Virus record (IMG/VR): IMGVR_UViG_3300005264_000064
Span: 38,938-102,937 of that record
Strand: one strand, 5' to 3'
Source of the DNA: a virus
Length of the DNA: 64,000 nucleotides
Shown: positions 12,999-62,661 of the stretch, piece after piece
How positions within the stretch are numbered: position 1 is the stretch's first letter
Layout: each line of letters begins with the position of its first letter
Position numbers and translations under genes: made by a program
The notes under the pieces: generated by a model
The model's database searches: none
Told to the model about the DNA's origin: nothing
The model's input: only the letters and a program-made list of their open reading frames with translations

Positions 12999-13931
12999 TC
13001 TATAGTCTTTGTAGAGTAAATAGTTAAGTGATGGATTTTCTTTTGACTTTTGCATTGTTTCTGCCACTAGTTTAAGGAGTGATGTGATGAAACGAATGTC
13101 GTCGAGGTTAATGTACTCTGTTGTTTGGGTACACGTCGCTGGATAATCTTTTATTTTGTTGCCTTTGGTTCCTGTCCTGTTGATATTGTCACGAGTAATC
13201 CAGATAATTCGGATACGGTCCACTTTGTACCCTAACGCTGTGTAGATGTAGGCGTAGCATAGAAGCTGAAGCTTATAGGCATAGGGGATTGTTTTAGGTG
13301 GAGTAAGTGCAGACGTGGTTTTGTAATCCTCAATGCAAAGTGACGTTTTATTTCCTTGGGCTGCGTCACATGACCCACATACGTGATAGCCAGGAATAAC
13401 TTCAGCGTGTATGAGTTCTTCGGAGTGTGCTGGCAGACCATTCTGTCTGATGTACTGAATGAGGGCGTTACCCATTGGTTTATATTGTTGGAGTATGATG
13501 TCGGCGTCTATATCTGGATTTTGCCAACGTTCGCTGAGTAGTTCCTCGATGTCGCATTTAACATCGTCTTTATAACGTACATCGTCGTCGTATGTTTCAT
13601 CGTTTGGAGCAGGCTGTAGGGTGTCAAATTCCTCTAGTAGCTGAAGGAATTGTTGTTCGTAGTTGGCAGGTATTTTACCTTGGGTGAATAAATACTTCCA
13701 CATTTCTCGTGAGTCGACTTTCTGTGTCTTGGTAAAGTCCTCTGCTATAAAGTGTATTAAAGTTCCGAGCACACTGGCCGTTGAACCTGTGAAGCCTTCG
13801 TTACCGAGGATTTCAGTGTCATACCACTTATGCGGTTCTTTAAAGAACCTTGCAAACTGTGATGGAGATATTCCCTCTGTGTTAGGAGGAAGGACTGACT
13901 TCCCACTGATATAGTCTAATTTAGTTTTCAT
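12990..13931 (-). CDS. RecB/Cas4-like PD-(D/E)XK nuclease
   Basis: 313 residues. An N-terminal SPSQFARFFKEPHKWY segment (the 'S.S....C...W' start common in RecB-like nucleases) leads to the catalytic core near residue 205: GSCDAAQG supplies the Asp, and LCIEDYKTTS supplies the E-x-K-like pair. It is followed by YKLQLLCYAYIY, the Q-h-x-x-Y motif of RecB nucleases. These enzymes resect DNA ends for recombination. It sits upstream of the Sak4 and SSB-like genes, matching an exonuclease/annealase pair. Its start overlaps the nucleotidyltransferase gene by 11 bp. Confidence 0.82.
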   Translation of the reverse strand: MKTKLDYISGKSVLPPNTEGISPSQFARFFKEPHKWYDTEILGNEGFTGSTASVLGTLIHFIAEDFTKTQKVDSREMWKYLFTQGKIPANYEQQFLQLLEEFDTLQPAPNDETYDDDVRYKDDVKCDIEELLSERWQNPDIDADIILQQYKPMGNALIQYIRQNGLPAHSEELIHAEVIPGYHVCGSCDAAQGNKTSLCIEDYKTTSALTPPKTIPYAYKLQLLCYAYIYTALGYKVDRIRIIWITRDNINRTGTKGNKIKDYPATCTQTTEYINLDDIRFITSLLKLVAETMQKSKENPSLNYLLYKDYRLK

Positions 13932-14889
13932 GGACGCGCCTTTTCTTGTAATATGATAGTAAGAGATGATCGAGGAATTTCCTATCTACTTCTTCTGGGA
14001 GGTCACTGTTTCGTATTAGCTGCTCTACTTCGTCAAGTGCAACTTTGATGTTATCTAGAGTTGCTGACAATAGGGATTCATCTGTGTTATATTTGACTTG
14101 TTTGACGCTGTCTGCGTACGCTAAAGGGAACTTGATATTGTTTGTCGATATGAGTTCTCGTAATTCTAAGGTTACCCGTAGAGCATGACTGAGGGCCTTC
14201 CAGTCAGTACCTGTTGCTGAGGACTTAGCCCGTGAACCGTATTGGTCACGTGCTGCGAGAACTCTGTCTTTTAGGAGCTGGACAGGTAGAGACATGTCAT
14301 GAAGCTTGCCGAGAACTGAGATGTACTTCTTACCCTTTTGTTCTATGCGCATGATGTATTTATACCCTTCTGTAGATACTTGATAGCAGTTGGAACATGT
14401 AGAAAGGTGTTTTGCAAATTCTACTATTTCTCCATAGCGTGAGCCCTTGATGCCGTACTTCGATGCTTGTTGCATGCAGTAACCTACAAATGATGATGTG
14501 TTGTTTGTTAGAAGTTTGTCGAGGTTTCTGTGAAGTGTGTCGACAAAACTCGGGTCAGAAAAAATTGCTGAGGATGATTTCATTGAGAACAGTAGGTCGA
14601 GGGCAGATGTTTCTCCCTTGCTGAGAAGCTTAAAGTATTGCTGGACACTGTAGAGACTGATGTCGATGTCGTCTGCTGTGTTCTTTGAGTTCTGGTTACC
14701 GGATGAGTACTCGTATGTGGACTTGTTGCTGCCAAGGATGACAGAGTCAATCGATGGTAGGAAGATGCCCTTGTAGTCGATGTCGGATGATGGAGAGTCT
14801 GTGCCATACAAGGTACTACCGAATTCTGTTAGGTAGATGAGGCGGTCGCCTGGTTGTAATAAAGATTTAGCTCGTTGTACGGGTGTCAT
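13921..14889 (-). CDS. RlaP-type Pol-beta nucleotidyltransferase (RNA repair)
   Basis: 322 residues. The Pol-beta superfamily signature G-S-x(9-12)-D-x-D is plain: FGSTLYGTDSPSSDIDYKG at about residues 23-41. The remainder fits the PF10127 family, known as RlaP (RNA-ligase-associated polymerase-like nucleotidyltransferase), proposed to add nucleotides to damaged RNA ends. It overlaps the start of the RNA ligase gene region by 23 bp, the classic RlaP-ligase neighbourhood. The specific substrate is not visible; repair of host-cleaved tRNA is the leading idea. Confidence 0.83.
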   Translation of the reverse strand: MTPVQRAKSLLQPGDRLIYLTEFGSTLYGTDSPSSDIDYKGIFLPSIDSVILGSNKSTYEYSSGNQNSKNTADDIDISLYSVQQYFKLLSKGETSALDLLFSMKSSSAIFSDPSFVDTLHRNLDKLLTNNTSSFVGYCMQQASKYGIKGSRYGEIVEFAKHLSTCSNCYQVSTEGYKYIMRIEQKGKKYISVLGKLHDMSLPVQLLKDRVLAARDQYGSRAKSSATGTDWKALSHALRVTLELRELISTNNIKFPLAYADSVKQVKYNTDESLLSATLDNIKVALDEVEQLIRNSDLPEEVDRKFLDHLLLSYYKKRRVHEN

Positions 14890-19939: not shown

Positions 19940-20021
19940 AGGATTCCTTTATTTTATTTATGTAATTAAATGGATAGTACACGGTACTGAAAAATTTCTG
20001 AAGGAATTGGTCTCCAGGTGT

Positions 20022-20100
20022 TAACATGTGCTGCCCATAGTGGTGTCCAAACAATTTAGAATAAATTGTTCGGGGAGCCACGGTTGGGCAGCACATGTTA
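20022..20100. repeat. 16-bp perfect inverted repeat with nested 9-bp stem
   Basis: TAACATGTGCTGCCCA at 20022 pairs with TGGGCAGCACATGTTA at 20085. AACAATTTA/TAAATTGTT (20050-20058/20062-20070) forms the tip, and GTGG/CCAC pairs in between. It is nearly a continuous long hairpin. No U-run follows, so it is not a simple terminator. Confidence 0.9.
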
Positions 20101-20113
20101 GTGAATAGCGTTG

Positions 20114-20142
20114 TGTTACATAACCGATGTAGGCTACTACAC
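20114..20142. repeat. GATG-stem motif, copy 3
   Basis: TGTTACATAACCGATGTAGG followed by CTACTACAC. The stem TGTAG/CTACA closes a GCTA loop. GATG begins 26 nt after the end of the 16-bp hairpin at 20100, the same spacing as the next copy. Confidence 0.75.
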
Positions 20143-20184
20143 TATCCGGTGTGCTTATTCTACCGATACTACCCATTTAATTAC

Positions 20185-20397
20185 ATTACTGCTACCAGAA
20201 ACCTACACGTACGAGACTAGCTCTATGCTAGACATGTGTTGAACTGCATTGAACCTGAGAGATCTCTCGTAGAGTAGATTCTGGGTTCATTCAGTTCAAC
20301 ACATGTGGTCATAAGCAGTTTATAGATAGCCGATGGAGGCTACTCCACTTACGTGTGTGTTGTTTATTTCTACGTGTAGGCTTGTGGTAGCAGTAAT
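20185..20397. repeat. Large multibranched inverted-repeat structure
   Basis: Outer 12-bp stem ATTACTGCTACC (20185) with GGTAGCAGTAAT (20386); then 10-bp CCTACACGTA (20202) with TACGTGTAGG (20371). Inside, a 15-bp stem ACATGTGTTGAACTG (20232) with CAGTTCAACACATGT (20292) caps a TGAACC/GGTTCA stem. The GATG motif copy 4 lies on the 3' side within the outer stems. Conserved pairing at four levels is beyond chance. Confidence 0.88.
20320..20348. repeat. GATG-stem motif, copy 4
   Basis: TTATAGATAGCCGATGGAGG followed by CTACTCCAC. The stem is TGGAG/CTCCA around GCTA. Relative to copy 3 (TGTAG/CTACA) both strands of the middle pair changed together, a compensatory substitution. GATG begins 26 nt after the 15-bp stem end at 20306. 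Confidence 0.75.
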
Positions 20398-20534
20398 TGA
20401 GTCCTGCTGAACTGTAGGCATACCCTGGCTTTCTCCCGTCTACAGGATTTTAAGAATATGTGTAACGGAGTATGTACACCGCCTATTGTGGTCGGATCTC
20501 TGTTACAAAGAATTTCCAGGAACTGTTAGTTTGG

Positions 20535-21278
20535 TTATCTGAGAGCTCTTGGTAGTAAGAGTCTTGACGAGGTGACTAAACCTCCGAGTGATGGACCATT
20601 TCTTTGGTGTCTGGCACATCTGATTTTCTTACGTATTTTTCTGGTAGGTGAAATACCTTCTGATCCTACCATGACTCCTAGAATACGACGGTTGCCGAAT
20701 TTGGCGTGATGTATACGGGTTTTAGCCGGGTTGATGGTAAGTCCGTAGTCTGACATGACCTCGGTGACTATTGCTATTGCTTCGTTGAGTTTTGTATATG
20801 ACGAAGGCGGAAAAGATAGTTGGATATCATCGGCGTATACCGTAAGTTTGTAGTCTGTATAGTATATATCGAATATGTCGCAGATTTCTTTTACCGGTGT
20901 AAGTAGATATATGTTTGCAAGCATAGGAGAGGTTGCAAAACCTTGTGCAAGAGTACCATCCGTGTGGGAAAAATGCTCAGGGTTTTCTAGAGGTACGTTA
21001 ATGGCATCTATTTTGATTGTGTCGAAACAATTAGATATGTCGAGGCCGATAGTATGGGCGTAGCCTATGTGCTGGATAGCTGCTGTTACACAGTTCCTGT
21101 CTTTGATGAATCCATGGAAAATTTTGTTGTCTCCGAAAAGTTGCGTTTCTCTTGAGTTAAATAGTGCTGACAACGTTGGTAATATGTTACGCTGTGTAGC
21201 TAGCAGATCTGCGTCAGGTGCACATATTCTACGATGTTTGCCGTTCTTTTTCTTTATAGTAAATTCACGGTATGTCAT
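20535..21278 (-). CDS. Retron/group II-like reverse transcriptase
   Basis: 247 residues, ATG after AAAGGACATAC, 9 bp from the stop of the JAB gene. RT motifs: N-terminal KKKNGKHRRICAPDADLLATQ (RT1), HGFIKDRNCVTAA (RT2), GLDISNCFDTI with Asp80 (RT3/A), AQGFATSPMLANIYL (RT4/B), VYADDIQLSF with Asp150-Asp151 (RT5/C), GLTINPAKTR (RT6) and ILGVMVG (RT7, where retron RTs usually read VTG). The QGxxTSP box is retron/group II-like, not the DGR variant. At 247 residues it lacks a clear thumb extension, ending LPRALR. It would make cDNA from a template RNA; the adjoining hairpin region is the obvious candidate template. Confidence 0.88.
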   Translation of the reverse strand: MTYREFTIKKKNGKHRRICAPDADLLATQRNILPTLSALFNSRETQLFGDNKIFHGFIKDRNCVTAAIQHIGYAHTIGLDISNCFDTIKIDAINVPLENPEHFSHTDGTLAQGFATSPMLANIYLLTPVKEICDIFDIYYTDYKLTVYADDIQLSFPPSSYTKLNEAIAIVTEVMSDYGLTINPAKTRIHHAKFGNRRILGVMVGSEGISPTRKIRKKIRCARHQRNGPSLGGLVTSSRLLLPRALR

Positions 21279-21287
21279 GTATGTCCT

Positions 21288-22523
21288 TTATTCGGGGTAT
21301 GCTTCTTCGTGGTATTTCGCTAGTTGTTCGTCTGTGAGATTAACAAGGATAGCTTTATCTACACCTATTGCGAGTAGCTCTTCTTGCATCACAATCTTGT
21401 CATACTCACGTACTGCTAGCTCGTCGTTGATTTCTTCGTAGCCTTCTAATATTGTTGTAACTAAATCTTTGCGTGAATAGATACTGTAATCGGTATAGTC
21501 CAGGTTAAAGAAGTCGTCTATCGTATGTGCCGCGGCATATAATTTTTCTAAAGGTAGTTGCTCTAGCTCAGAGAGTTCATACATCTTTGGCACATCTGGT
21601 CGTTTTACACTCATTCCTGGTAGTTGTGGAGTTTTAAGCCAGCTGCCTGCGGAAGTATAACGGAACGTAGACGGTGATATTGCCTTCTTTGTTACGTGCT
21701 TAGGGTTAATTAAGAGAAGCGGTAATAGAGTAGTTTGTAGGATGGAAACCAAGGCTGTGTTATGGGTTTCCAATAAGGCCGAATTCTTAGCTCTAATTTC
21801 GTAGGGTGTATCTTTGCATTGTCCTAGTAACCTTTCTACTGTACTCAGTTGTATGGGTACTCCCAGTGCTATAGAGTGACAGCGTGCTTCTGTATACGTT
21901 GTAGTAGACTCTGTTGAGTTTACGATGCGATACTCTGTGTGCGCTAAGTTGCACTGCCCATTGTCGATAGCCATAATTGATGCAAAATTCGGTGTTAGGT
22001 TACCGGATGTTAATGGGTATACTATACCTGGCTCAGTGATCGTACGGTCTAGATCTGTACCAGAGAATGATTGTCGCGCAGAGCCTCCAGGATGTCTGTG
22101 GATACTGTTGACTGTTGATGTTACAGGTGTGAATTTTACGTTGAACAGATCTTCTAGTTGCTGCTGGAGGGATGTACCCAATAGCTTAGTTACCTGAGTA
22201 GTGTGTACTGGTCTTATTTTCTCTGATGTGGCTTTGACGTCTTTTAATTCGAAGTCGATGTGTGCACTAGTTACCTGTTGTGGGTAATTGAAGAATACTG
22301 TCGGTACTGCGACGTCGAGTATTGAGTCGTCGGCTGCTATGTGCCTGAAGACTAGAGCGTAATAGTGCACTTGGAATTCGTTGGAAATTGCTGCAGGGCC
22401 TGACCGTGTGTAGATTTCCTGTAGGGTTGCTTGGTTTAAGAGTAGAACTCCTTGATGACGTGATGACTCGTAAGTCTGGAAGGTCTTCTTAGTCTTCTGT
22501 TGTGGTGGTATTATTGGCTTCAT
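21288..22523 (-). CDS. JAB/JAMM metallopeptidase domain protein
   Basis: 411 residues, ATG after AAAGGAATTCG, overlapping the preceding gene by 35 bp. A JAMM zinc-peptidase core is seen at residues 139-157: NSIHRHPGGSARQSFSGTD, giving His142, His144, Ser152 or Ser154 and Asp157. Such domains remove ubiquitin-like modifiers. The rest has no recognised fold; a C-terminal helical region follows residue 320. The neighbours are E2-like and E1-like genes, as in PRTRC- and Bil-type ubiquitin-like cassettes, which supports a deconjugase or modifier-processing role. Confidence 0.72.
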   Translation of the reverse strand: MKPIIPPQQKTKKTFQTYESSRHQGVLLLNQATLQEIYTRSGPAAISNEFQVHYYALVFRHIAADDSILDVAVPTVFFNYPQQVTSAHIDFELKDVKATSEKIRPVHTTQVTKLLGTSLQQQLEDLFNVKFTPVTSTVNSIHRHPGGSARQSFSGTDLDRTITEPGIVYPLTSGNLTPNFASIMAIDNGQCNLAHTEYRIVNSTESTTTYTEARCHSIALGVPIQLSTVERLLGQCKDTPYEIRAKNSALLETHNTALVSILQTTLLPLLLINPKHVTKKAISPSTFRYTSAGSWLKTPQLPGMSVKRPDVPKMYELSELEQLPLEKLYAAAHTIDDFFNLDYTDYSIYSRKDLVTTILEGYEEINDELAVREYDKIVMQEELLAIGVDKAILVNLTDEQLAKYHEEAYPE

Positions 22524-24102
22524 CGAATTCCTTTATGACATCCTGTAGTGGACGTAAGTATTTAGTTGTCAGTTTAGCGATCAGCTCAGCGCGGGCTACT
22601 TGTGCCATGCGGTAATTTTTAAAGAAGGGGTCTTTTAGAGTACTGAAGTTATCACAGGCAACTACTTTAAAGTAACCAGAACCGACGTATATTGTAGTAA
22701 TATCCGTTGAGGCCATGTTATCTTTAAACAATTGTTCAAAACGTCTTTCTGAGATTAGTGCGGGGACCTCCAGTTCTATGACATAGTGTTCGTCTTCATC
22801 TGTGTACTTTAAGCTTATTTCTTGCTGAGTGTTTGGTTGTAGCTCCAGGTAAGCGTGTATCTCTTTGTGGTAGTATGCTGCTTGTAGTGTTGTGCAGTCT
22901 TGTAACTTTTTAAGTTGGATAATAGCTGCGGCAGGACTGTTGTTCTTGAAAACAGCTATGTGCTCGGCTGGAAAAACTACTGGAGGAGTGGGTTCTTTTA
23001 CTATCGGTGTGTAGTCTTCTATGTAACCTGCTTTGTGGTAAAGGAACATCGAGGTATCAATGCATTGGTCAGCGTATAGAAGAGCTCCTGGTCGTATCAG
23101 TGTACGGTTTAGTGGTGAACCTAAGTATGAGTGATTGAGCGTTGAGAGTCCTTCAAGTGTTTGCTTCGATTGGCTGCCTGTACAGACGTTATTGAAGATT
23201 ATGCGATTGTCGTCTGCTTGGATAGTTGAATATGATATATTTGCTGCTAGAAACGGGGTTATCTGGCAACACTCGCCGTTAGCGCCTGGAGTTAGACGGA
23301 GTATTGATGTTCCGTAATAGGGAGCAATGTTTCCTCTTGTTAGTAATTGGTGAGGAAGAGTGTAGTGTACTGCGGCTGGGTCGTAATATGAGTTGTAGTT
23401 CTCAGGTATGTCGACTGCTGGCACTGTCTTGACTACTGTTACTGATGTGCTATCTTTACTTGGTATTACATCTGTAATTTTAGAAGTGTCTAGTATAACT
23501 TCTGTGTTTTTCTTAGAAAGACGTAGTAAGTTGGTAACAGCTGTTGATACCTCGGCTACGGTAGTATTGTAGGACTTATACGTCTTATCCATTGCTTTTC
23601 TGTTAGGGTAGAAATAAACTAGGACTTTAAACTTTATGTTTGAATACGTAGATGTAGTTAAAATAGCAGACGCTACCAGTGGGTGGAGTGGGTTAATCAT
23701 AAGTGCTTTACTCTTTACACCCCGCAGTACTACACCGTAGAAGTTATTGCCGGCCTTTTTTATTAGTGTATTTATTATAGGTATTGCTTCTTTGATGGTG
23801 TATTCACCATCGAGGGTTAAAATACTTTTTGTGATACTTGTGAAGAACGCTGTACCGTTTGATTGTTCTGGATTGAAGTCTGTACCTAGTCGGCCGCGAC
23901 TGACTGCTAAGCGCTTATAGACGTTTGTGTTTGTGTATATCGGAGTGATGGGTACACCCTTCTTATAGAACATCAGGGGCTCTTGGTTGCTGGGTTGTGC
24001 GCTGAAGGTAGGTACGGCGACTGCTTTTACAAACTCCTTGAACTCGGCTTTGTGCAGGCGTTGTATGAAAGTATCGCTAGTTCCGGTTATTTGATTATAC
24101 AT
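22489..24102 (-). CDS. Putative E2-like conjugating protein (PRTRC B-like)
   Basis: 537 residues from the ATG at 24102, which follows AAGGATCCTC. The stretch RIIFNNVCTGSQSKQTL (Cys307) followed by STLNHSYLGSPLN resembles the N-x-V-C-x-G...(F/L)xxSxF pattern of PRTRC system protein B, an E2-fold relative in which the Cys is the thioester site. No other domain is clear; the N-terminal 250 residues look globular. Flanked by E1-like and JAB genes with tight junctions, it is the natural place for an E2. The E2 call rests on that short match and context and could be wrong. Confidence 0.5.
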   Translation of the reverse strand: MYNQITGTSDTFIQRLHKAEFKEFVKAVAVPTFSAQPSNQEPLMFYKKGVPITPIYTNTNVYKRLAVSRGRLGTDFNPEQSNGTAFFTSITKSILTLDGEYTIKEAIPIINTLIKKAGNNFYGVVLRGVKSKALMINPLHPLVASAILTTSTYSNIKFKVLVYFYPNRKAMDKTYKSYNTTVAEVSTAVTNLLRLSKKNTEVILDTSKITDVIPSKDSTSVTVVKTVPAVDIPENYNSYYDPAAVHYTLPHQLLTRGNIAPYYGTSILRLTPGANGECCQITPFLAANISYSTIQADDNRIIFNNVCTGSQSKQTLEGLSTLNHSYLGSPLNRTLIRPGALLYADQCIDTSMFLYHKAGYIEDYTPIVKEPTPPVVFPAEHIAVFKNNSPAAAIIQLKKLQDCTTLQAAYYHKEIHAYLELQPNTQQEISLKYTDEDEHYVIELEVPALISERRFEQLFKDNMASTDITTIYVGSGYFKVVACDNFSTLKDPFFKNYRMAQVARAELIAKLTTKYLRPLQDVIKEFDEANNTTTTED

Positions 24103-24110
24103 GAGGATCC

Positions 24111-25724
24111 TTAAAAATTGTTTGCTTCGGTTGTTGTCATTACGAGATTGTTGTGGTCTAACTGCCAATGGTAGTTACGATCCGGACGGAGTTTTAGTGT
24201 GCCGTCGAATTCGAAATCCATGATGTGTTTATCTGCTTCATGTAAGTCTTGGTCTGAGGCTAATAATTTTAGTAGCTCGATCGTCATTTGTAATTGGTTC
24301 ATAAAGAATGATCCAAGTTGTATGATGCCGTATGTCTCAATTTGGAGATCCATATTTTGTTTAGGGTTAAGCCAAATTGAACATGACGTGTTGGCATGAG
24401 TTGCGCAGATTAAGGGACCAATTTTTGCAAGTTCGTCCCTGTACTCGATTCCGGGTGCGCCGTATAGTACTGTGTTATCTACTACGTGCTCTGTTGGGTG
24501 TCTCTTTACTATTTCTGAAGATATATATTTCTTTGCTGGTAAGTATTGTTCGTGTATTTCTAATGTTCTTGAACCGAGGTTTTTTAGTAGAGGGGTAATA
24601 AGCTGTATTTTGTTCAGGTTGCCTCTGGGTATGTTATAGGCAGAACTGTCTAGTGGGAAACGCAGCATGTTAGAATACTCTACAGATTCTTTTTCGAATA
24701 CTGCTACTTTTGAAAATATTTTATAGGTGCTTGTCAGCTTTGTTAATTCTGATAGCCAATAAGCTGTGTTCATTCCGGTACCCCCCGCCCCAAGAAATAC
24801 GAAGTTTAACTTCTTTCTTTTGACTTCTGTCAGTAGCTGTTTAATGTCCTTTAGGGTGTACCCGAGAACTCTAAGTAGCTGGTCTGTAGGGACTTTTTTT
24901 ACGTTTAGATACTCTGCTACAAATGGTGAGATAGCTACTGCCGTTGATGGTATATCGCTATTTTCTTGGATTTGTTTTTTGTCGCCGTTGTATCTAAACA
25001 TTAATCGAGGAAAGAAGCTGTCCATTACTACGTTGGAAAGTCCTGACTTTGGTCTGTCGAAGAATGCATAACGTACACGAATTTGCTCTGATAAATAGCT
25101 AGAAAATAGATGCATGTCGGCTGTTGTTATTTTGTTGTACTTGCCGTTAGAGTCTCTGTGCAGGTATGCTGGAGCTCGTAAAGTGCCGTAGACGGAGCGT
25201 CCTACATATTTATTTGTAGGGTTATGGTAAGCAACCATCGAAATATAGGTGCCATGCCCTGCTGTAAAAATTGCATGGGCACTATACTCTAGTAGTTCGA
25301 GGGTGCTTATAGGCTCAAGGTAATCGCTACTAATGCGTACCGGCTCCCGTCTGCAGGAAACTGACATACAATAATAAGTGTCTGGTTGGTCTTGGGGAAT
25401 AACTTTAGTCAACAGAGCATCAGGGTGGTTCAGGAAAACCTCATATCTTTCACTAGTCTGTAGCGTTGCCAGTACTACTGCGGGATTAGTGACTTTGTAC
25501 ATCTGCGGGACGTTACGCAGAAGTGTACGTTGGCCTTCTTCTGTTGTGAAATCTAAGGGTACTGGTCTTGCTACATCGTTGTCTTGTGTGTCTATTATTG
25601 TGTACTGTTCTGTGTCGTCGTGTGTCTCCACCTGCATCTTGACTGTGCCTGGTAACCAAGTTAGGATCTTCTTCAGTAGTGCTGTGTTTTCTTCGGTGAC
25701 TGGTGTTGATATATTATATGTCAT
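24111..25724 (-). CDS. ThiF/E1-like adenylating enzyme
   Basis: 537 residues, ATG after AAGGAAACATAA. The C-terminal half is a ThiF/E1 Rossmann domain: NFVFLGAGGTGMNTAYWL with the glycine loop at 312-317, then VAVFEKESVEYSNMLRF (acidic-tip and arginine region). A cysteine-bearing segment PLICATHANTSCSIWLN follows (Cys440, Cys448). These enzymes adenylate the C-terminus of a ubiquitin-like protein and pass it to a Cys. The N-terminal 300 residues are a separate domain of unknown fold. First gene of a four-gene run ending in the reverse transcriptase. Confidence 0.75.
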   Translation of the reverse strand: MTYNISTPVTEENTALLKKILTWLPGTVKMQVETHDDTEQYTIIDTQDNDVARPVPLDFTTEEGQRTLLRNVPQMYKVTNPAVVLATLQTSERYEVFLNHPDALLTKVIPQDQPDTYYCMSVSCRREPVRISSDYLEPISTLELLEYSAHAIFTAGHGTYISMVAYHNPTNKYVGRSVYGTLRAPAYLHRDSNGKYNKITTADMHLFSSYLSEQIRVRYAFFDRPKSGLSNVVMDSFFPRLMFRYNGDKKQIQENSDIPSTAVAISPFVAEYLNVKKVPTDQLLRVLGYTLKDIKQLLTEVKRKKLNFVFLGAGGTGMNTAYWLSELTKLTSTYKIFSKVAVFEKESVEYSNMLRFPLDSSAYNIPRGNLNKIQLITPLLKNLGSRTLEIHEQYLPAKKYISSEIVKRHPTEHVVDNTVLYGAPGIEYRDELAKIGPLICATHANTSCSIWLNPKQNMDLQIETYGIIQLGSFFMNQLQMTIELLKLLASDQDLHEADKHIMDFEFDGTLKLRPDRNYHWQLDHNNLVMTTTEANNF

Positions 25725-25775: not shown

Positions 25776-26663
25776 TTAGAGGAGTTTATTAATAAGTTCT
25801 TCGCGTAGTGCGGTATACTCATCGTCTGTGAAATTCCTGGTGTGTTCGAGGTTGTGGTCACGTATGTACTTGTCATAGAAGTAGGCGCACTCTTTAGCCG
25901 AATCCGCAGTGTGGATTTGAACCTCTATACCCCTTACCTTAACACGTGCTCTGTACGTAGTTTTATCGTGTGATGTAAAGCTTACACCGCGGTAACCTGA
26001 CGTGTTGCTGCTGCGTAAAAGCCTGGTGTTTCTTTGTTGTATGGTTTGTGCAACCCATCGACAGTTGTCTGGGGAGTACCCTTTACTGTTATTAATTCGG
26101 TCTATTGTTAAGTTACTTGCGTAGCCGTTGGCGAGAGACCACTCAAAAAATTTTCTGCGGTCTTGTGCCCATTCATCACATACTTTAATATTAGTAGTTG
26201 TGTAATAGTCATTACCTTTTCGATACTCCCCTGTTCTATTGAGCATATTATTGAAAATATGGTATAATCGATGCTTATTTGTAATACCTAAGTCTTTATA
26301 CTTCTGTGTTTTATTTCCTCGTATACTATCTGTGCATGCTTTACACCCGTAGCGTGTGAATAGGTAGGGTCTATATTGTACTATTGACTTACTACCGCAG
26401 TGTTTGCAGAGCACTTCGCATGTCTTATGTCCATCAACAAATTTTGTTATGTAGAGGCCGTTATCCTTACTGTTGTGTGCGGCTACGTAATCTACTACCT
26501 TTTGTTGCCTAGCTTTCGCTAATTCTTTATTGATGCAAGTAAAGCATGGTTTATGCTGTGCTCGTTTTGCTGTGAAATAGCCAGTTGTCTGTGTTTGACC
26601 ACAGACATGGCAGGTAACCTCTGCTTTTGATTTATCGTCAGTGTGTCTGATGATTGTTTTCAT
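25776..26663 (-). CDS. Free-standing HNH homing endonuclease with AP2 domain
   Basis: 295 residues, ATG after AAGGAAGATAA. N-terminal CxxC zinc knuckles (CHVCG, CFTC, CKHCG, CKAC) are followed by an HNH-type core NLTIDRINNSKGYSPDNCRW, then an AP2-like DNA-binding domain SGYRGVSFTSHDKTTYRARV. This is the standard layout of phage homing endonucleases. It sits between a small acidic gene and the E1-like gene, probably as a mobile intruder, and may have split an older operon. Confidence 0.82.
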   Translation of the reverse strand: MKTIIRHTDDKSKAEVTCHVCGQTQTTGYFTAKRAQHKPCFTCINKELAKARQQKVVDYVAAHNSKDNGLYITKFVDGHKTCEVLCKHCGSKSIVQYRPYLFTRYGCKACTDSIRGNKTQKYKDLGITNKHRLYHIFNNMLNRTGEYRKGNDYYTTTNIKVCDEWAQDRRKFFEWSLANGYASNLTIDRINNSKGYSPDNCRWVAQTIQQRNTRLLRSSNTSGYRGVSFTSHDKTTYRARVKVRGIEVQIHTADSAKECAYFYDKYIRDHNLEHTRNFTDDEYTALREELINKLL

Positions 26664-26861: not shown

Positions 26862-27134
26862 TTACTCTCCTTTTTCTTCATCAAGCATTGCGCCTGATAC
26901 TGGTAAGTCGATACTGATTTCACCGCTGAATTTGTAAACTTCAATCTTTGCTTCTGGGCATCTTAGTACGATTGCCTTTGCTGCTTTGATTAAGTCTTTC
27001 TTTGTTGCTGGTCTGTTCTGTAGAACTGAACCGTTTACTACTAAGATGAATTTAGGTGTTGTTTTCTTCTTAGTTTTCTTTGGTGCAAGCATTTCTTGTA
27101 GTGCTGCAGCTACTTCGCTCTTGATGTTACTCAT
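26862..27134 (-). CDS. Small alpha/beta protein, 90 aa
   Basis: A Lys-rich N-terminal arm (PKKTKKKTTPKF) is followed by a compact beta-alpha-beta unit, ILVVNGSVLQNRPATKKDL then IEVYKFSGEISIDLP. The same layout (VLIIYNQNGNIF..., IRIYKFNKGFTTSIP) occurs at the C-terminus encoded at 41161-41445, so these are paralogs. The protein could serve as a small binding module. It has no C-terminal Gly-Gly, so it is not an obvious ubiquitin-like modifier for the E1 nearby. Confidence 0.6.
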   Translation of the reverse strand: MSNIKSEVAAALQEMLAPKKTKKKTTPKFILVVNGSVLQNRPATKKDLIKAAKAIVLRCPEAKIEVYKFSGEISIDLPVSGAMLDEEKGE

Positions 27135-62187: not shown

Positions 62188-62264
<77 letters not shown>

Positions 62265-62269
62265 AATGT

Positions 62270-62344
62270 ACGGATGTACTTTAGTGGTAAAAGGCCAGTC
62301 TGTTAAGCTGGAAGCCGTTGGTTCGAATCCAACCGTCCGTGCCA
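62270..62344 (+). tRNA. tRNA-Asn (GTT)
   Basis: Acceptor ACGGATG/CGTCCGT, anticodon loop CTGTTAA, T-arm TTGG-TTCGAAT-CCAA, CCA encoded. Confidence 0.92.
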
Positions 62345-62345
62345 T

Positions 62346-62421
62346 TCGTAAGGTAACTCAGGAGTAGAGTGCTAACCTGAAAAGTTAGAGGCCGTTGGTG
62401 CGAGTCCAACTCTTACGACCA
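62346..62421 (+). tRNA. tRNA-Phe (GAA)
   Basis: Acceptor TCGTAAG/CTTACGA, anticodon stem CTAAC/GTTAG with loop CTGAAAA, CCA encoded. The T-loop TGCGAGT lacks the second T of TTC. Confidence 0.9.
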
Positions 62422-62424
62422 TAT

Positions 62425-62498
62425 ATGGATATAGTGAAGTGACATAACACCTGTTTTGGGAACAGGAGTCGGAAATTTGATTCTTCCTATCCGTACCA
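62425..62498 (+). tRNA. tRNA-Pro (TGG)
   Basis: Acceptor ATGGATA/TATCCGT, anticodon stem CCTGT/ACAGG with loop TTTGGGA, CCA encoded. The D-arm is weak and the T-loop reads TTTGATT. Confidence 0.85.
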
Positions 62499-62501
62499 TA
62501 C

Positions 62502-62575
62502 TGAGGGATCGTATAATAGTAGTACACTGCACTTTGACTGCAGGAACAAAGGAGCGTTACCTTTTCCCTCAACCA
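62502..62575 (+). tRNA. tRNA-Gln (TTG)
   Basis: Acceptor TGAGGGA/TCCCTCA, anticodon stem CTGCA/TGCAG with loop CTTTGAC, CCA encoded. The T-loop reads AGCGTTA, far from the TTCRAN consensus. Confidence 0.85.
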
Positions 62576-62586
62576 TCATGCATATG

Positions 62587-62661
62587 GTGGCTGTAGTACA
62601 ATGGCTAGTACACTCGGCTGTGGCCCGAGGTATCTGAGTTCGATTCTCAGCAGCCACACCA
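62587..62661 (+). tRNA. tRNA-His (GTG)
   Basis: Acceptor GTGGCTG/CAGCCAC, anticodon stem CTCGG/CCGAG with loop CTGTGGC, T-loop TTCGATT, CCA encoded. A G precedes the 5' end, possibly the His-specific G-1. Confidence 0.9.

Follow-up and report, generated by a model that had tools for sequence, protein, structure and literature searches.

What are a reverse transcriptase (RT) gene and a structured gap doing in a phage genome, directly behind three genes for E1-, E2- and JAB-like proteins? The locus lies in a 64,000-nucleotide stretch of DNA (the window), which corresponds to positions 38,938-102,937 of the 102,937-bp IMG/VR virus record IMGVR_UViG_3300005264_000064. With the group of the N4-like Alteromonas phage AD45, it shares 55% identity in the DNA polymerase and 43% in the primase, and we therefore regard the record as an N4-like (Schitoviridae-type) phage. 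The original prediction for the locus joined the four genes and the adjoining RNA into one system. Judging from the sequence, the RT and the gap probably represent a retron carried by a phage and newly arranged in its parts, standing in a row with a ubiquitin-like conjugation operon that is separable from it.

On the minus strand, the row comprises the genes of a candidate modifier, an HNH endonuclease, the E1-like, E2-like and JAB proteins and the RT, followed by the 595-bp gap and the primase gene. As predicted, the four leftward genes from E1 to RT are separated by gaps or overlaps of at most 35 bp: E1 and E2 are 8 bp apart, E2 and JAB overlap by 35 bp, and JAB and RT are 9 bp apart. The likely start of the E2 gene is the ATG at 24102, a longer open reading frame (ORF) from a TTG having been set aside.

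26862-27134, minus strand: conserved small protein of 90 amino acids (aa), candidate modifier, with orthologues upstream of E1
24111-25724, minus strand: E1/ThiF-like protein of 537 aa, motif GAGGTGMN
22489-24102, minus strand: E2-like protein of 537 aa, motif NVCTGS, with the invariant Cys in VCTG
21288-22523, minus strand: JAB/JAMM-like protein of 411 aa, motif HRHPGGSARQSFSGTD
20535-21278, minus strand: compact retron-clade RT of 247 aa, motifs QGFATSP and YADD, RVT_1 domain
19940-20534: structured gap of 595 bp, beyond the RT and before the primase

The gap folds to −228.8 kcal/mol, compared to a mean of −139.2 kcal/mol for shuffled sequences (z −13.3). This bears out the predicted structure, which in fact resolves into two abutting tandem units rather than one diffuse fold. 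Each unit is strongly structured when folded separately, while the 143 nt preceding unit 1 have no special structure (z −0.5).

20185-20397, minus strand: unit 1, msr-msd-like, with arms, fold z −11.6 and a G preceded by TA; first arm (a1) 20371-20397, candidate priming G 20370, second arm (a2) 20185-20211, long hairpin 20232-20306
19960-20186, minus strand: unit 2, msr-msd-like, with arms, fold z −11.1 and a G preceded by TA; a1 20161-20186, candidate priming G 20160, a2 19960-19986, long hairpin 20022-20100
20323-20359, minus strand: 37-nt shared core (msr stem-loop), unit 1 copy, 78% identical to the unit 2 copy
20117-20153, minus strand: 37-nt shared core (msr stem-loop), unit 2 copy, the reference copy of the repeat

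The arms of unit 1 are 27 nt long and 93% complementary; those of unit 2 are 26-27 nt long and 95% complementary over 20 nt. Inside the arms, both units contain, in the same order, an unpaired A-rich stretch, a stem-loop with the 37-nt core, a long hairpin and a small hairpin. The sequences of the arms and hairpin stems differ between the units, and the pairing is kept within each unit. The features by which we recognized retron RNA, that is, terminal arms, an msr stem-loop and a long msd hairpin, were found in the window units and in those of three related phages, on contigs L033, L121 and L115. Apart from a single weak site within unit 2, the hairpins showed no T-run terminator, nothing relevant was found in Rfam, and a DNA pattern built on the 37-nt core matched no further viral contig. 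It is very likely that the gap consists of two tandem units with retron anatomy. The prediction that cDNA is made from the adjoining RNA holds as far as the anatomy goes, which is that of a retron template, while the single RNA it assumed has to be replaced by an array of two to four distinct units.

The RT matches Pfam RVT_1 at 1.6e-20, and its best PADLOC profiles are retron RTs, down to 4e-32. Among NCBIfam models, retron St85 scores 1.3e-23, compared to 1e-16 for group II and 4e-7 for Drt2. The best retron profiles are of type III-A, the nearest sequences are RT-protease fusions, and the relatives of solved structure are the RTs of Retron Ec67 and Ec86. When placed in a tree that included RTs of plasmids and phages, the window RT falls on a long branch within the retron clade (support 99/95), apart from group II RTs and from the diversity-generating RT of BPP-1; by this placement, it does not belong to the diversity-generating RTs. 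On profile and tree evidence, the RT is retron-like, as originally proposed, and of neither group II nor diversity-generating type.

A frameshifted or truncated RT was considered and rejected, as the short C-terminus, GGLVTxSRLLLPxAxR, is also found in L033 and, nearly so, in L121; the RT of L115 likewise ends short. A compact RT distantly similar to that of the window is encoded at L018:754-1590, on small plasmids of Klebsiella and E. coli, where its gene follows one of unknown function that encodes 98 aa; it was dismissed as a relative, since its downstream region has no comparable arms and only a moderate fold (z −3.0). At L035:2613-6759, L038:923-6690 and L047:2598-6810, further phage RTs, with about 30% identity to that of the window, adjoin a gene pair that, as read from the sequence, resembles a MoxR-type AAA ATPase and a VWA-type protein. 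These possibly form another phage RT module.

In all ten units of the four phages, the base right after a1 is a G preceded by TA and a2 starts with TA, although this count is partly a register choice, as the exact inner arm ends were set by hand. The units had first been located by arm complementarity, with the exception of unit 2 in L121, placed by eye. Retrons prime on a guanosine located within the inner stem end or just past it, most commonly in TAGC (PMC6868368), and the candidate priming G's of all ten units match this rule. The full TAGC is present in two of them, both in L115. Moreover, a1 pairs best with the a2 of its own unit, with a mean of −21.1 kcal/mol vs −4.6 kcal/mol for other pairings.

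To these we add the arm controls. The best 20-nt arm pair has 19-20 paired positions in all four gaps; among 148 control stretches, which are shorter than the L121 gap, it has 15-17 in 142, 18 in four and 19 in two. When a TAG was required, 16 of 16 pairs were seen only in the gaps, with none in 172 kb of RT-less loci. At 14 of 16 pairs, chance matches are common (∼1.7 per 21 kb), and such a loose TAG-anchored scan is too noisy for use alone.

All phage relatives are metagenomic contigs, and scans of the collections rely on short peptide patterns that miss relatives; the RT subfamily may exist outside phages with the E1-E2-JAB triad. Scanning viral contigs with an RT alignment yielded L033, whose RT is 47% identical to that of the window across its entire length; the four RTs (window, L033, L121, L115) are pairwise 44-59% identical. 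An E1 alignment brought nine new contigs beyond L033, L010 and L001, and L115 and L116 proved to be the same phage. The three triad genes are contiguous in 13 lineages (window, L033, L010, L001, L006, L115, L118, L119, L120, L121, L123, L124 and L125). The order E1-E2-JAB-RT-array is common to the window, with two downstream units, L033 and L121. L033 carries the small conserved protein, E1, E2, JAB, the RT, a 668-bp gap with two units, a helicase and the primase, and in L121 the RT comes directly after JAB and is followed by four units in 1,069 bp. In L115/L116, the RT lies 4.6 kb past JAB on the same strand, with two units in 577 bp downstream. The recurrence of the order in L033 and L121, and of the RT with its units, displaced, in L115/L116, argues that the gene row is not due to chance. 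The original prediction would have fallen had the four genes never been neighbors elsewhere; in L033 and L121 they are.

No RT or triad is annotated near the primase in the isolated N4-like Alteromonas phages AD45-P1 and PT11-V19, and tblastn of the phage collection with E1, JAB and E2 gave no match. Upstream of the RT in L115 (18240-18520), there is a possible extra arm-bounded unit with 17 of 18 pairs, which has a GGCGAATCGCC-like element in common with the downstream units. L006 (JAKISX010000030.1), binned as a Sulfurimonas metagenome-assembled genome, contains the triad and phage-like genes and is probably a phage contig.

What do the three proteins of the triad look like? In E1, GxGG, N352 and R355, the residues of an adenylation signature, are invariant in 13 sequences; the orthologues have weak, sub-threshold ThiF matches, and the top PDB match is a ThiF-type protein, also sub-threshold (E 0.23). 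In JAB, the JAMM metal site (E49, H142, H144, P145, D157) is invariant in 11 full-length sequences; the informative PDB match, an AMSH-like protease aligned at the JAMM motif, ranks second (E 1.4), behind the unrelated adseverin (E 0.8). The E2 Cys in VCTG is invariant in 13 sequences. While an E2 model based on three sequences was poor (pLDDT 37), that of the L033 orthologue, built on a 13-sequence alignment, reached pLDDT 82 and pTM 0.81 and has a beta-meander, then the Cys, then helices. In the PDB, a Ube2g2 complex ranks first for this model, with an E of 0.23 that is not significant, and Mms2, Ubc13, Rad6 and other E2s recur among the matches, none of them significant; one unnamed predicted podovirus protein is a strong match. 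The fold comparison proposed for E2 has thus turned up E2s, including the first match, at a level that is suggestive only. Given the invariant catalytic motifs on the one hand and the sub-threshold or non-significant database matches on the other, we consider a ubiquitin-type triad likely, if unproven.

Orthologues of the 90-aa protein are found directly upstream of E1 in L033, L010, L119 and L120; its C-terminal end has no diglycine. No Pfam Prok-E2_D match, our test for PRTRC, was seen in the window or its relatives; a search for this domain in 397 genomes found nothing, but its controls were also empty, making it uninformative. A profile scan limited to ten nearby proteins found no CD-NTase in the operon.

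Several other features of the neighborhood deserve mention. The HNH endonuclease gene (25776-26663; PHROG 374, 1.7e-34) sits between the candidate modifier and E1 and is absent from the corresponding place in L033 and L010. A nucleotidyltransferase-like motif, GSxLYGTxxPxSDxDY, occurs in proteins near the triad in the window (13921-14889), L115 (13759-14523, directly after JAB) and L010 (11367-12452). In L115 (12032-13748) and L124 (11919-13120), the JAB gene is broken at much the same position into two reading frames, perhaps by an intron or insertion; in L115, a 109-aa ORF lies between the halves. Farther away, four tRNA genes (Met, Asn, Phe, His) lie on the plus strand of the window at 62188-62661.

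How could such a locus work? The RT would prime at the 2'-OH groups of G20370 and G20160 and copy the long hairpin of each unit, yielding two different branched RNA-DNA molecules (msDNAs). With one msDNA per unit, there would be two in the window phage and up to four in L121. These may serve the phage in conflicts with its host or with rival phages, a role to which we give somewhat less than an even chance, and then most likely as DNA-hairpin decoys or sensors; such a use best fits arms and hairpins that have diverged around a kept priming site and the two to four units of each phage. More speculatively, as the promoters used by N4-type virion RNA polymerase are hairpins of single-stranded DNA, msDNA hairpins could serve as its templates or decoys. 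E1, E2 and JAB, in turn, would attach a small modifier to some target and remove it; this modifier is perhaps the conserved protein whose gene lies upstream of E1.

Several observations weigh against a retron in line with a conjugation operon. The array is downstream of the RT in all four phages, while in standard retrons msr-msd lies upstream, a usual rather than defining layout. The RT reads AAxxH and ILG where the retron motifs NAxxH and VTG, a common although not absolute mark, are expected; it is compact, with a short C-terminus. Profile scans recognized no toxic effector or known effector domain among its neighbors. The profile searches suggested by the original prediction, while matching the RT to retrons, placed no library family above the threshold for E1, E2 or JAB. 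Finally, no RT was seen in nine of the 13 triad lineages, a count that includes several fragmentary records and L006, checked as a 13-kb locus only. This leads us to reject the RT as a constant companion of the triad. Since the triad alone is wider, we regard the two as modules that are repeatedly but not obligately joined, and the joint four-gene system is not supported as originally stated.

The data allow a direct link between the modules without calling for one, and we doubt it. It would mean a single system, in which the several msDNAs of one RT control the phage ubiquitin-like cascade or are controlled by it. As in standard retrons, which hold a neighboring effector in check, the msDNA could sense infection or the host state and gate E1-E2-JAB, for example so that the tagging of defence or replication proteins of the host depends on msDNA, or else the cascade could modify and switch the RT. 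We hold such integration, and the tagging with it, to be rather doubtful as well: the identical order in the window, L033 and L121, the JAB/RT junctions of the window and L121, which span 9 bp or overlap, and the rarity of both the triad and the RT subfamily in the viral collection speak for it, but the triad lineages in which no RT was seen and the displaced RT of L115 do not fit, and the poorly resolved E1 tree implies about three gains or losses of the RT. The patchy presence of the RT is in line with an ordinary selfish or defensive retron unrelated to its neighbors, the second and further units being decaying duplicates, for which the duplicated msr-msd copies in Retron-Nex1 provide a precedent (PMC6868368). 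Still, decay would hardly keep the pairing arms and the priming G in every unit despite divergence, nor does lack of any relation to the neighbors explain the same place after JAB in three phages, and we find this account unlikely.

The triad could also be misread, its motifs arising by chance in phage proteins of other function. The lack of significant family or fold matches is compatible with this, as is E1 Cys448, which is not kept in L033; on the other hand, the JAMM set, the E1 GxGG, N and R and the E2 Cys are invariant in 11-13 diverged sequences in a fixed order, and the nearest weak matches are ThiF, AMSH-like and Ube2g2 proteins, so that chance is quite improbable. Least probable by far is that the RNA serves as template for an element of group II or diversity-generating type, or is a long terminator. 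Diversity-generating RTs do occur in phages, and the window RT has weaker matches to group II profiles, but the tree separates it with 99/95 support from the RTs of both BPP-1 and group II, the units have retron arms and a priming G, and the weak site inside unit 2 is the sole T-run terminator at the hairpins.

If a retron array beside a separable conjugation operon is the correct reading, one RT serving two to four diverged templates would mean that phages use msDNA for their own ends, and the array would be a natural means of producing single-stranded DNA in multiplex within cells, with a phage-borne ubiquitin-like cascade available for study as its companion. Whether and why one retron RT uses several natural templates becomes directly testable. 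We did not find this combination and layout, a retron array behind a ubiquitin-like operon, described in the literature searched, which comprised open-licence papers and is weak evidence of absence. In particular, these papers reported no natural msr-msd units arrayed in tandem under a single RT, no retron carried by N4-like phages and no E1-E2-JAB set with an RT attached; this agrees with the original statement that no described system joining both was known.

Retrons have come to be known chiefly as bacterial defences against phages, each with a single template. The phage set shares with them the RT clade, the a1/a2 arms, the short msr stem-loop, the long msd hairpin and the priming G in TAG. 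Unlike them, it has its RNA downstream of a compact RT, two to four units per RT and no recognized toxic effector, and is carried by N4-like phages. Retron-Nex1 (Ne160) also has several msr-msd copies, but these have no RT within a kilobase (PMC6868368), whereas the phage array directly follows one RT. Retronphage phiR73, a P4-like cryptic prophage, carries the standard retron Retron-Eco3 (PMC6868368) and is likewise a phage-like element with a retron; here, by contrast, tandem units lie among the replication genes of a large N4-like phage. Similar to DRT2 and other defence RTs, which stand beside non-coding RNA (PMC12039810), the window RT adjoins a structured non-coding RNA, but it scores Drt2 at only 4e-7 vs 1e-23 for retron St85.

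As for the triad, the phage locus groups E1-like, E2-like and JAB-like genes. Such genes also stand together in type II CBASS, as Cap2/Cap3, and in Bil and PRTRC operons. As for the CD-NTase of CBASS (for Cap2 of type II, see PMC10097602), none was recognized in the immediate neighborhood of the phage triad, where ten proteins were scanned. Compared to all three, the phage proteins have no significant profile match and carry long extra domains, and their genes are located in the phage core.

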